A stretch of 64,000 nt of DNA from positions 62,001 to 126,000 of the forward strand of contig CALSNJ010000004.1 of assembly GCA_943787745.1 (NCBI GenBank), given 5' to 3'. The notes under the pieces are model-generated. The model saw nothing but the letters and a program-made list of their open reading frames with translations, did not search any database and was not told where the DNA came from. Position numbers and translations under genes: made by a program. This document shows, piece after piece, positions 44,513 through 63,525 of this stretch. This stretch comes from an uncultured Alphaproteobacteria bacterium (GTDB lineage: Bacteria; Pseudomonadota; Alphaproteobacteria; UBA6615). The number at the start of each line of letters is the position of its first letter. The first letter of the stretch is position 1.

Positions 44513-46606
44513 CTAGCGGGTAAAAGCTCCACCCTCTTTTGCCAGCCTTGTAAGCAACGGCGAAGGCTCCCAGAGCTTGCCGTGTTCGGCGTGAAATTCC
44601 CTCACCCGTTGGTCGATTTCCGGCAGGCCGATTTCGTCGGCCGTAAACATGATCCCACCGCGCCAGCGCGGATAAGCAAAGCCGTAGAGCCACATGATAT
44701 CGATATCCGAAGCCCGTGCCGCGATGCCTTCATCGAGGATTTTCGCGCCTTCATTGATCGCGGCGTAAAGACACCGTTCGCGGATTTCATCATCGGATAT
44801 GTCGCGACGCGGGGTCCCCTGCTCTTTGGCAACTTCGATGGCAATGGCCTCGGTTTCAGGATCGGGCACCGGGCGGCGACCGCCGTCCTCATAGCTGTAC
44901 CAGCCCTTGCCGGCCTTGATTCCAAAGCGACCCAGCTCACACATCCGGTCGGCCAGATGCATGTAGCGATGCGCGGGGTCATGCTGATCGGCCAGCGATT
45001 GTCGCATCCGCCAGCTCACATCCAGCCCGGAAAGATCGCTCACGGCCAGCGGCCCCATGGGCATACCAAGTCCGGTCAACACGGCGTCCACTTGGGCTGG
45101 CGACGCGCCCTCCTCAACCAGAAATGTTGCCTCCCGGACCATCGGCAAACGCGAACGATTGGCGATAAAACCATGGCAAACCCGGGCCAGCACGCCGATC
45201 TTTCCGGTTTTCTTGGCCAGTGCCATGCCTGTCGCGATGGCATCCGGCGCGGCCTTGGCCGGACGCACAACTTCGAGCAGCCGCATGGCGTTGGCGGGTA
45301 CGAAGTAATGCAGACCAATCACATCTTCCGGACGGGACGTCGCGGCGGCGATTGCATCGATATCCATATAGGACGTGTTCGTCGCAAGGATCGCGCCCGG
45401 TTTGGCGACCTTGTCCAGATCGCCGAAGATCTGCTTCTTCACATCAAGGTCTTCAAACGCGGCCTCGATCACCAGATCGGTGTTCGACAGCGCCTCAAAC
45501 CCAACGGCACCGGTAATCCGCGCGAGGCGTTCGTCTTTCTCCGCCGCATCAATGCGTCCGCGCTGGACCATCCCGTCATACAGCTTGACGATCTCCGTCA
45601 TGCCGTTGTCGAGTGCCTCCTGGGATGTCTCGACGACTGTCACCGGCAGCCCGGAATCGGCCAGGCTGGCCACGATTCCCCGCCCCATGGTGCCTGCCCC
45701 AATCACACCCGTGCTGGCGATCTCACGTGGTGCGATCTCCTTGCCAATATCGGGAATTTTCGAAGCTTCACGTTCGGCAAAGAACGCGTAACGCAGTGCC
45801 TGGGACTGATCGCTGTTCTTGCAGAGCTCAAACCGTTTGCGATCAGCCTGCACCGCGTCCGGATAGGACATCGTCATGCCATCGACAACGCTGTCGATCG
45901 CCTGATGGGGAGAATCCTGACCTCGCATCCGGCGGTTTGCGAGCTCGCGATATTTCTCGATGGTCTCGGCGTGGTCTTCGGGAGACCCGATGCCCGTACG
46001 CGGTTCGCTGGAAATACGCCGCGGTGTGCCATCGGCGATGATCTTCTCTGCAAAGGCGACCGCGCCCGCGCGCAGATCACCCTCGATGAGGTCATCAACG
46101 ATCCCGTATTCCAGAGCTGTGGCCGCACCCACCGGTTTGCCAAGGACAATCAGCTCCAACGCATGATCCAGCCCGGCCACCCGGGGCAGCCGCTGGGTGC
46201 CCGCCGCACCCGGGAATATGCCGAGATTCACTTCCGGCGTGCCCATACGGGCGCTGGGAACGGCAACGCGGAAATGGCAGCCCAGTGCCAGCTCCAACCC
46301 GCCGCCCAGGGCAGTGCCGTGAATCGCGGCCACGATGGGTTTCTCAATCGTATCGAGATGATCAACAATCGCGATCAGATGCGGCTCAAGGGTCGGCTGG
46401 TCAAACTCCCGGATATCCGCACCTGCCGGGAATGTTCGCCCCAAACCGATCAGCACAATGGCTTCCACACTGTCATCGGCTGCCGCGCGATCCACCTGCG
46501 CCATAATGCCTTCGCGCACCCCGATTCCCAGCGCGTTGACCGGTGGGTTATCGATGGGCAGAATTGCAACGCGGCCTTCGGTTTCATAACCGACGAGATC
46601 ACTCAT
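44513..46606 (-). CDS. FadJ-like bifunctional enoyl-CoA hydratase / 3-hydroxyacyl-CoA dehydrogenase
   Basis: This 697-residue fusion catalyses two beta-oxidation steps. Residues 1 to about 185 are a crotonase domain ([19 protein letters not shown]), then a 3-hydroxyacyl-CoA dehydrogenase with NAD-binding [13 protein letters not shown] near 295 and [19 protein letters not shown] with the catalytic His near 430. A helical C-terminal domain ends it. The ATG at 46606 has AAGGGG six bases upstream; ATG 46612 is too close to that site. It may be the first gene of the transporter 2 operon. Confidence 0.93.
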
Positions 46607-46710
46607 TTTCATCCCCTTATCAGGGCGCCGGTTCGTTGAATTTTACCGCCAGCGCGTCTGTGGTGGCCATGATGCGGAACCGCGTGCGTGCGGTCAATTG
46701 GAGTAGAAAC

Positions 46711-58822: not shown

Positions 58823-59049
58823 CGCTCCCCCCGAAGCACATGCTTATTGGCAACACTCAAACCGAGTATACCACGCACACCATCAGGATAACATTCGGAC
58901 CTTCAGGTCACGAATAGCTGCCGCGCATTTGAGTAATGGTCCGTGGCTCGCACAGGTGCCGCGCGCCTGCTAAAACAGGGGTCGGGTCAATCTGGCCCGT
59001 CGGGCCGCAAACTGCGCCCGGGAAATCATGTATCGAACGGAACCCGTTG

Positions 59050-60444
59050 ATGGCCGGTGACAGCGCAATTCGTCCAAACGTGTCGCAACTTTCGGCACTG
59101 TTGGCTTCAATTATTGCAGCCGTTCTGCTGGCCGCGCCCCTTTGGAGTGACGCCCCCGGGGTTATGCCCGCCGCTGGCGTCATCCTGTTTGCGATTGTGA
59201 ACTGGGCGACAGGTGCCCTGCCCCAGCACATCACAGCATTGCTGCTTTTTCTGATTACTGTCGTCCTCAAGATCGCGCCTGCAGACGTCGTCTTCTCAGG
59301 GTTTCACGCCAGCGCAACATGGCTGGTCTTCGGCGGATTCATTATCTCGATCGCAGCCCAGCAATCCGGACTGGCCGCGCGAATTGTTCGCGTGCTTCTG
59401 ACCCATCTTCCCGCACGCTATCTCGCCATGGCCGCAGGTCTCGCAGGCGCGGGTGTGTTGCTCAGCTTTATTATGCCATCTGCATCGGGACGCGTGGTTC
59501 TGATGGTGCCGCTTGCTGTTGCTCTGGCCGGGCGGCTCGGATTTGCCGAACGTACACGCGCGCGCCACGGTCTGGTGATCGCCGCAGGCTGGGGCACAAC
59601 CATTCCTGCTTTTGGCATTTTGCCATCCAATGTTGTGAATATGGCCTTCGTGGGCGCCTCCGAAAGCATCTTCGGGATCGGGTTTACCTATTTCGGCTAC
59701 ACTGTTTTGAATTTCCCTATCCTGGGCGTATTGGCCACGATGATCTCGGTCATCCTGATCACGCTCCTGTTCGGCGCCAAGCCGAACCCGCAGGGCGACG
59801 CCGAAATGGGGACGCGAACCAGCCCGGCAGAGCAGCGATTGATGGCGATCATGCTGATTGCACTCGCATTCTGGATGACGGATTCGCTGCATGGCATATC
59901 ACCAGCCTGGGTGGCCATGGCAGCAGCTCTCCTGTGCACGACCCCGGGGATAGGTGTGGTGTCCTCCTCTGTGATGATCAAAGACGTCAATTACGGCGCC
60001 TGGATGTTCGTCGCGGGCGTCATCGGAGTGGGTGCAATCGCCAACCACACAGGACTTGGTGCCGCCATGGGAGAGTGGCTGCTCGCCACCGTGCCGCTCA
60101 GCAAGGATGGGGGCATTGTCACCTTCTACGAGATTTTCGCGGTGAGCGCGGCTGTCGGGCTGGTCACAACCTTCCCCGCAGCACCGCCGATCGTCACGTC
60201 TTTCTCGGATGCCATCGCACAGGCGACTGGATGGCCACTGAAGTCCGTCCTTCTGGCACAGGTTCCCAGCTGGATGATCTACGCCTTCCCGCATCAGGCA
60301 CCGCCAGTGGCCATCGCCATGGCACTGGGTGGCGTACCGATGCGCGAAGGACTGCGATTCCTCGCGGTCTATTTCATCATCGGAATCCTGATCGTGTTGC
60401 CGCTGCAATATTACTGGGGGCACATGCTCGGCATGTATCCCTGA
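59050..60444 (+). CDS. SLC13/DASS-like anion transporter
   Basis: This 464-residue inner-membrane protein has about eleven to twelve hydrophobic helices and repeats of the DASS fold: IMPSASGRVVLMVPLAV and TTFPAAPPIVTSFSDA are the two helix-hairpin regions that bind substrate in the family. The ATG at 59050 is chosen because the first helix then starts about 15 residues in; the frame opens at 58936 but adds an Arg/Cys-rich, non-helical stretch. It may take up a dicarboxylate or sulfate-like anion. Membership is moderately certain. Confidence 0.75.
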   Translation: MAGDSAIRPNVSQLSALLASIIAAVLLAAPLWSDAPGVMPAAGVILFAIVNWATGALPQHITALLLFLITVVLKIAPADVVFSGFHASATWLVFGGFIISIAAQQSGLAARIVRVLLTHLPARYLAMAAGLAGAGVLLSFIMPSASGRVVLMVPLAVALAGRLGFAERTRARHGLVIAAGWGTTIPAFGILPSNVVNMAFVGASESIFGIGFTYFGYTVLNFPILGVLATMISVILITLLFGAKPNPQGDAEMGTRTSPAEQRLMAIMLIALAFWMTDSLHGISPAWVAMAAALLCTTPGIGVVSSSVMIKDVNYGAWMFVAGVIGVGAIANHTGLGAAMGEWLLATVPLSKDGGIVTFYEIFAVSAAVGLVTTFPAAPPIVTSFSDAIAQATGWPLKSVLLAQVPSWMIYAFPHQAPPVAIAMALGGVPMREGLRFLAVYFIIGILIVLPLQYYWGHMLGMYP

Positions 60445-60807: not shown

Positions 60808-60827
60808 ACGGGGCCTAATAGCCCCGT
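60808..60827. terminator. Hairpin at convergent end of MIase-like and GST genes
   Basis: ACGGGGC (60808-60814) and GCCCCGT (60821-60827) form a 7-bp GC-rich stem with a 6-base loop straddling the GST stop. No T-run is present, so it is a weak candidate terminator for both genes. Confidence 0.4.
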
Positions 60828-61618
60828 TCGGCTTTCAGCTCCGACGCTGTCCGATAGACCTCTGGGTAACGCTCTGAAATACGCGCACCAGGATAGAACG
60901 CTGCCGCGTAAGACGGGCGCTCCTGAATGCGTTTGAACCAGGCCGTCATCTCGGGCAGGTCGTTTTCCCAGAGGAAGGCATATCCAAGGTCGTCCATACG
61001 ATCGATCAGCGGCGTCACCTGTGCATCCACCATTGTGTACTGGTCGCCCATGATCCAGGGCCCACCCAGCTCGACGATGGCGGCATCAATCCGTTCGCAG
61101 GTCTGACGAATCTGGAACTCGGCATATTCAAGCTCATCCTTGCCAAACCCCTTCTGGGACATGCGCTGATAGAACTGTTTGCGCAGGGGCAACCGATCGG
61201 CGTGGGCGGCGAAATCGTCATTGCTCGCTTTGGCGAACCGCATTGGCGCCAGCATATTTGCAAAAGTTGGCACCCGCACCGCGACCGTGGGCACCTCATC
61301 GATATAGCGCATCCATGCGCGCATCTTTGCGCGGCCCACAGCTGTGTCCGGCATCAGCGGCGGATTGGGAATGATTTCTTCGAGATACTCCAGAATGGCC
61401 GAAGATTCGACGAGGATCGTGCCGTCATGCACGAAGGTCGGCACCACGCCATTGGGATTGATCTTCAGATAATCCGGCTCGAGCTGCTCGAACTTCCCCA
61501 GATCGACATCGTGTTCGACCCAGTCCTTGTTCATCTCGGGCAGGCCTTTCTCGGCCAAGGTGACGCGCACCTTCTGACTGCAGGTCGACTGCGGCGCCTG
61601 ATACATCTCGATCTTCAT
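60815..61618 (-). CDS. Glutathione S-transferase-family protein
   Basis: This 267-residue GST has the N-terminal thioredoxin domain with a possible catalytic Cys in QSTCSQKVRV (residues 10-19), the cis-Pro/substrate motif NGVVPTFVHDGTILVESSAILEYLEE (near 55-80) and a C-terminal helical domain ending in FYPGARISERYPEVYRTAS. The SxCSQKVR pattern is shared with beta-etherase and dehalogenase-like GSTs, but the substrate is unknown. It is the downstream copy of a tandem pair; the upstream copy would end in ATGA overlap with this start. Confidence 0.88.
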   Translation of the reverse strand: MKIEMYQAPQSTCSQKVRVTLAEKGLPEMNKDWVEHDVDLGKFEQLEPDYLKINPNGVVPTFVHDGTILVESSAILEYLEEIIPNPPLMPDTAVGRAKMRAWMRYIDEVPTVAVRVPTFANMLAPMRFAKASNDDFAAHADRLPLRKQFYQRMSQKGFGKDELEYAEFQIRQTCERIDAAIVELGGPWIMGDQYTMVDAQVTPLIDRMDDLGYAFLWENDLPEMTAWFKRIQERPSYAAAFYPGARISERYPEVYRTASELKAERGY

Positions 61619-62389
61619 TCTGCGTCTCCGTCCTTAAAAAACTGTGGGTACTTCTCGCTCACATTGGTGCCGGGATAGAACGCGATATCAAACGAAGGGC
61701 GCATTCTGTATCCGGCCGAACCACGCGGTCATTTCGGGAAGATCATCCTCCCAGAGTTTCGCATATCCCAAATCCGCCATACGCTGGATCAGCGGCGTGA
61801 GCGTGACATCAATGAGCGTGTAGTCCGAGCCGAGAATCCAAGGGCCGCCGGACTGAATGACTGCGGCATTGACCCGTTCAGCCGTCTGCCGAATCTGGCC
61901 CAGTGCGTTGTCCACTTCACTTTCCGCGAAACCATCGATCCGGCCCATCCGGCGATAAAACGCCTTGCGCAAAGGAAGTTTCTCGACCCGCTCCTGAAAC
62001 TCTTCCTCAGGCATGTTTTCATAGCGCAATGGCCGGAACACCTGATTGAAGGACGGCACCCGGACAGCCGGTGTCGGGACTTCTTCCATGTAACGCATCC
62101 AAACGCGCAGACGGGCCCGCGGGAGCGGTGCACGGGGCACAAGGGAGGGCTCGGGGAAAATTTCATCCAGATATTCAACGATGACCGAAGACTCAATAAT
62201 CGGCTCGCCATCATGCACGAGGGTGGGAACTACGCCGTTCGGATTAAGCTTCAGATACTCCGGTGTGAGGTGGTCTCCGGTCGCGAAATGCAGTTCATGG
62301 CTGGTCCATTCGATACCCTTTTCAGCCAGACAAATCCGAACCTTCTGGCTGCACGTAGAGTGACCTGAGTGATAAAGCTCTAACGCCAT
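61615..62389 (-). pseudogene. Glutathione S-transferase paralogue with 3' frameshift
   Basis: The open frame (62389-61688) encodes a 233-residue GST, again with STCSQKVRI near the N-terminus, that stops at TGA 61690-61688. The sequence just downstream, read one frame over, continues RPSFDIAFYPG and SEKYP, matching the paralogue's RPSYAAAFYPG and SERYP, and ends in TGA overlapping the next gene's ATG. One extra base at about 61698-61701 would explain it. It may be an error in the sequence, a recent mutation or a true short form lacking the last helix. The first domain and most of the second are intact. Confidence 0.8.
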
Positions 62390-62496
62390 TGACTGATCCT
62401 CCCAACAAATTGAAGCGCGCGATCTCGAAGTCGCGCTTAGGCTGTTTATACCAATCTCTGTTCACGAAGTCCCTCAACCGAATTTGCGTGGCTGAT

Positions 62497-63525
62497 ATGA
62501 TTCGATTTCTTTTGGCTTTTACCGTGGTACTGACATTTCCGTTTGGTGCGAGCGCCATCGATCTAACCAACTGGCCCGACCACACGACCATGAATGGCGC
62601 GCGCGGGACACCAATCATCTACCCCAGCCATAGTCCCTTCACCCTGTGGGAGGTTGGCAAAAGCGAACAACTTGATCCACCCACGGATGCCCAGGCGGTT
62701 CTGTTTATGCCCACAGATGCGAGCGCAACTGCCCCTGTGCCCGCGGTTATTCTGTTACACGGCGCTGCAGGTGTTCTCGGTGCGCGCGAGCTGACCTATG
62801 GCGCGCAATTTGCCGAGATGGGAGTGGCAGCTCTTGTGGTCGACGCTTTCGGAGCCCGACGGGACCGGGCAACAGGTTTCATTGACCGGCTGTTGCAGGT
62901 CACCGAGACCATGCTCGTCGCAGATGCGTATTCCGGACTGCGGCATCTCAATTCTCTGCCCAAGATCGATGGAGACCGGGTCGCGTTGATGGGGTTCTCC
63001 TATGGCGGCTTGTCGACAATGCTCGCCGCCTTCGAACAAACAGCAAAAACACTCAGTCCCGACGGACTCCGGTTCGCGGCTCATGTGTCCTTCTACGGCC
63101 CCTGCCTGGCCCGGTTCGACAACACCCAGGCAACCGGTGCGCCAGTACTCCTGTTGGCCGGGTCCGAAGACGAAATCATAGATCGGGAGCGATGCAATGA
63201 GGTCGTCGAAGATTTGCGTGAGGGTGGCGCTCAGGCGGAGTTCGTCATGTATGACGGTGCCTATCATCAATGGGACGGTCGATTTGCCGGTCCACGCACC
63301 ATCGGCCGCAATCTCGCGCCATGTGAGCTCAATGTGAATGAACGCGGTGTTGTGCGGGACACGTTTACGCTTCTTCCCATGTCGGGACCGTTTCTGCGCA
63401 AGGTCATTCTGGGGCTTTGCGTCGGTAGCGAAGGTTACCTAATCGGGCGTGATGACGAAGTGCGCGCAAAATCAAATCAGAAGGTTGGTGTATTCCTGAT
63501 GAACGCGTTCAAGCGCCGTAACTAA
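62497..63525 (+). CDS. Secreted dienelactone-hydrolase-family protein
   Basis: This alpha/beta hydrolase of 342 residues has a signal peptide (MIRFLLAFTVVLTFPFGASA) and the dienelactone hydrolase arrangement: VILLHGAAGVLGAREL (oxyanion region near residue 90), nucleophile elbow GFSYGGLS near 170 with Ser instead of the Cys of true dienelactone hydrolase, and YDGAYHQWDGR with the His near 255. The ATG at 62497 is chosen because the signal peptide starts there; the frame opens at 62389. It is likely periplasmic. Substrate is unknown. Confidence 0.84.
   Translation: MIRFLLAFTVVLTFPFGASAIDLTNWPDHTTMNGARGTPIIYPSHSPFTLWEVGKSEQLDPPTDAQAVLFMPTDASATAPVPAVILLHGAAGVLGARELTYGAQFAEMGVAALVVDAFGARRDRATGFIDRLLQVTETMLVADAYSGLRHLNSLPKIDGDRVALMGFSYGGLSTMLAAFEQTAKTLSPDGLRFAAHVSFYGPCLARFDNTQATGAPVLLLAGSEDEIIDRERCNEVVEDLREGGAQAEFVMYDGAYHQWDGRFAGPRTIGRNLAPCELNVNERGVVRDTFTLLPMSGPFLRKVILGLCVGSEGYLIGRDDEVRAKSNQKVGVFLMNAFKRRN

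Follow-up and report, generated by a model that had tools for sequence, protein, structure and literature searches.

A one-base gain, very probably private to one assembly, displaces the conserved C-terminal tail of a LigF-like GST gene

Introduction

LigF, a beta-etherase of Sphingobium sp. SYK-6, is the nearest described counterpart of the GST considered here and a precedent for the loss of a C-terminal tail. The LigF tail has been described as disordered by prediction and not required in vitro, the protein cut after residue 242 (delta-242) having 109% of the activity of the full-length enzyme (PMC4777856). For a protein encoded in two frames, the precedent is programmed +1 frameshifting of the prfB type. 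This requires a suitable shift direction and a UGA at or soon after the shift, and is further characterized by the slippery heptamer CUU UGA C, an upstream Shine–Dalgarno stimulator and conservation. Finally, recently frameshifted genes and consensus indels in draft bacterial genomes present a single one-base indel in a gene that is otherwise intact and constrained, and that is intact in relatives.

Here, a tandem pair of GST genes, GST1 and GST2, is compared with these systems. The pair lies in a 64,000-nucleotide stretch (hereafter the window) of an alphaproteobacterial genome assembled into 3.27 Mb on 7 contigs (G000). The original prediction held that GST1 stops early because of a one-base gain, and that its native tail continues in the next frame.

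Results

Read from the sequence on the minus strand (62389-61688), the zero frame of GST1 ends in ...WFGRIQNAPFV*, so that the early stop claimed after RIQNAPFV is indeed present (Table 1). From 61701 downward, the +1 frame encodes RPSFDIAFYPGTNVSEKYPQFFKDGDAE and is closed by the TGA at 61617-61615. The claim that this frame encodes a paralogue-like tail was likewise borne out, its counterpart being the C-terminal region of GST2, RPSYAAAFYPGARISERYPEVY. The 85-nt displaced segment reached BLOSUM62 scores of 75 against the GST2 tail and 126 against the orthologue tail, while 5000 mononucleotide shuffles gave maxima of only 36 and 40, respectively; the similarity is far above chance. The tail TGA overlaps the next ATG as had been described. 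Further, the shifted frame brings GST1 back to 257 residues, the usual length of its orthologues, and the simplest event is therefore a net gain of one base within the short interval given in Table 1. Both this regained length and the alignment with 11 orthologues support the one-base gain of the original prediction. A six-frame Markov scan, run to find switches of coding frame, lacked the sensitivity needed for a tail of 28 codons.

Table 1. Positions of the GST1/GST2 features in the window
Feature	Coordinates	Strand	Remarks
GST1 zero-frame ORF	61688..62389	(-)	233 aa: 228 native residues plus NAPFV, then premature TGA (61690-61688)
Net one-base gain, approximate site	61702..61705	(-)	From DNA alignment with 11 orthologues; four bases against one orthologue codon
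Displaced native C-terminal tail, +1 frame	61615..61701	(-)	28 codons plus TGA
ATGA overlap	61615..61618	(-)	Tail TGA and GST2 ATG (61618-61616); ATGA or GTGA in the orthologues compared
GGAG, likely GST2 ribosome-binding site	61626..61629	(-)	Within the GST1 tail, 7 nt upstream of the ATG; motif read from the sequence, function putative
GST2, intact paralogue	60815..61618	(-)	267 aa; 55% identity to GST1

The orthologous tandem gene was sought in 60 related genomes, and the site was readable in 11 (G001, G002, G004, G005, G009, G015 and G019-G023), all of the same genus or family and with 77-84% identity. Five of these orthologues were also found as named records, from alphaproteobacterial or proteobacterial MAGs, some of which are labelled Rhodospirillaceae. 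In 11 of 11, the long frame runs uninterrupted through R-P-S-F with no stop at the site, and the GST1 orthologue ends in an ATGA or GTGA overlap with the gene that follows. With the orthologous proteins as tblastn queries, the window copy of GST1 falls into two frames, split at 61697-61716. The interruption was seen in this copy alone, and the gain is present in none of the 11 orthologues. Since every readable orthologue is long, the shift is confined to this assembly; the comparison with relatives that the original prediction had proposed leaves the frameshift reading standing. However, the nearest copy by N-terminal match, that of the sixth genus member G003 (best match, 98% over 58 residues), is not among the 11, since its contig ends before the site. 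Separately, a further GST paralogue in G009 (G009:C3:660863-661563, minus strand) gave two adjacent overlapping matches (query residues 1-100 and 94-231) and may itself be frameshifted.

The initial 22 codons of the displaced tail were compared one by one with those of two genomes of the same genus, G002 and G004. Against G004, 11 codons differ synonymously and none nonsynonymously, and against G002 the counts are 12 and none. Elsewhere in the gene, synonymous and nonsynonymous codon differences number 98 and 33, respectively, against G004, and 91 and 38 against G002. This pattern points to strong selection on the tail until very recently. A tail long out of frame would have gained amino-acid changes; if it is no longer translated, the shift is thus either very recent or absent from the organism. 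An intact frame in relatives and a displaced frame free of decay, the two marks of a private frameshift, are both found here. Taken together, the evidence gives us high confidence in a net one-base gain that is private to this assembly and not programmed, being either a consensus error or a very recent real mutation.

That GST1 is instead a genuine short gene, with the similarity past its stop a fossil or due to chance, is extremely unlikely: its ORF is intact to the stop and its Pfam domains are complete, but every readable orthologue is long, the tail alignment lies far above the shuffles and the first 22 shifted codons differ synonymously only. Within the tail, the stretch RPSFDIAFYPGTNVSEKYPQFF (window 61636-61701) has identical amino acids in four same-genus genomes (the window's own, G001, G002 and G004) and is predicted to be ordered.

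GST1 matches the Pfam families GST_N_2 (E 3.9e-20) and GST_C_2 (E 5e-09), both over the curated cut-offs, and so combines the N-terminal thioredoxin-like and C-terminal helical domains of the cytosolic GST superfamily. An AlphaFold model of an intact orthologue fits GST folds at a pLDDT of 91.7 when 31 sequences are supplied (50.8 with 7 sequences). In the predicted model, helix 218-228 is the last element kept in GST1, and the short helix 231-236 would be lost together with the ordered residues that follow, up to about position 250; the mean pLDDT is 94 for residues 231-240 and 89 for residues 241-250. For the intact orthologue, LigF (PDB 4xt0) is the top solved structure by profile (E 3.4e-55) as well as the top fold match (TM 0.82 / 0.87, 27% identity), and the delta-242 construct ends at profile position 237 in the alignment. 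An identity of about 27% does not imply beta-etherase activity. Further, GST1 reaches only 19.4 bits with the curated NCBIfam beta-etherase model NF042997, whose cut-off is 440, and is hence not classed as a beta-etherase.

The original prediction offered sequencing error, recent inactivation or a programmed shift as the origin. The first two are supported. As to the third, +1 frameshifting, whether programmed or incidental, would join both frames and yield the long protein; CCC-U and GUU UGA are examples of where slippage might occur. The direction of the shift is suitable, the zero-frame stop is a UGA soon after the gain, as the prfB type requires, and the tail amino acids are perfectly conserved over 22 codons. 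However, all three further characters of the prfB type are absent from GST1. The heptamer CUU UGA C is not found, GTT rather than CTT preceding the stop, and none of AGGGGG, AGGAGG, GGAGG, AGGAG and GGGGG occurs as a Shine–Dalgarno-like sequence in the 30 nt upstream of the stop. Conservation of the shift site, expected of any programmed +1 frameshift, is likewise lacking, with neither the gain nor a stop at the site in any of the 11 orthologues. Moreover, shuffled sequences fold as well as the RNA around the site (z = -0.07), and scans for Rfam families, promoters and terminators returned no match. Frameshifting of this kind is accordingly considered very unlikely. We regard as highly improbable, too, its fuller form, in which the gain is real, slippage at CCC-U or GUU-UGA produces the long protein and recoding sets GST1 dosage and GST2 coupling in a single lineage.

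The indel background of the assembly was estimated by tblastn comparison of genes between samples of this genome (about 560 kb) and of relatives (about 630 kb). In these sampled stretches, 2 of 122 homologous places (~132 kb) carry clear frameshifts, namely GST1 and a gene that we take to be CoxG-like from its recognizable sequence and its CO-dehydrogenase-like neighbours, not from a family search. The latter lies on the minus strand of the same contig, 8.3-8.9 kb past the window end (L052:8299-8899, contig C4:134299-134899). It has a net one-base gain at about L052:8750-8766 (contig C4:134750-134766), 8.8 kb beyond the window, and is intact in the relatives G001 and G002 (L096:16840-17436 and L101:6187-6780). 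This second one-base gain indicates a low indel background in the assembly, a density that would be compatible either with residual errors in the consensus or with recent pseudogenes of the ordinary kind. A few ambiguous N-terminal splits were left out of the count. Also excluded were several seeming splits that the homology screens had raised and that proved to be over-long start calls or antisense shadow ORFs.

In G001, at least 4 genes are clearly split when set against the window genome. Its stretches L097 and L098 hold many genes that fall across frames, as if by many assembly indels; examples are the counterparts of the intact window genes at 58936-60441, 44516-46612 and 62389-63522. The splits in G001 illustrate the frequency that such indels reach in some assemblies.

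Discussion

Whether the private gain is an error or a mutation was weighed by judgement rather than by calculation. We give a residual consensus error an even chance. The other form of the private gain, a real and recent one that leaves the cell with a shortened GST, whether inactive or functional like tail-deleted LigF, is judged to have slightly less than an even chance. The low indel density, explicable by ordinary recent pseudogenes, is in its favour, as is, with slight weight, a site that on direct reading holds no homopolymer and is hence less typical of long-read errors. The tail, however, is free of any decay, and the second clear frameshift also falls in an otherwise intact gene, as errors would give, which adds slight weight to an error.

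Were the gain real, translation of GST1 would end 69 nt upstream of the GST2 start, and the product would be a 233-residue LigF-like GST that keeps both GST domains and lacks the last 29 native residues. Stop-start coupling between GST1 and GST2 would presumably be lost, and GST2 would retain its own putative ribosome-binding GGAG. With regard to the recent inactivation that was originally proposed, a recent mutation is supported; inactivation is unproven, as both Pfam GST domains are kept and a tail-truncated LigF is fully active in vitro (PMC4777856). The delta-242 result is encouraging for residual function of a shortened GST. It is not decisive, because the truncation in GST1 reaches about 10 residues deeper and would also remove the predicted short helix 231-236.

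Beyond annotation, the importance of the case is slight: GST1 should be flagged as frameshifted, and one-base gains affect no fewer than two conserved genes of the assembly. A small structural point concerns the tail itself. While the LigF tail is predicted disordered and dispensable, that of the GST1 family is predicted ordered and strongly conserved, and in 11 of 11 orthologues its coding sequence runs into the start of another GST gene. With recently frameshifted genes and consensus indels of draft bacterial genomes, GST1 shares the single one-base indel, the intact and constrained remainder of the gene and the intact relatives, and no feature sets it apart from them. In comparison with the known systems, GST1 is an ordinary frameshift in one assembly rather than a new recoding signal.
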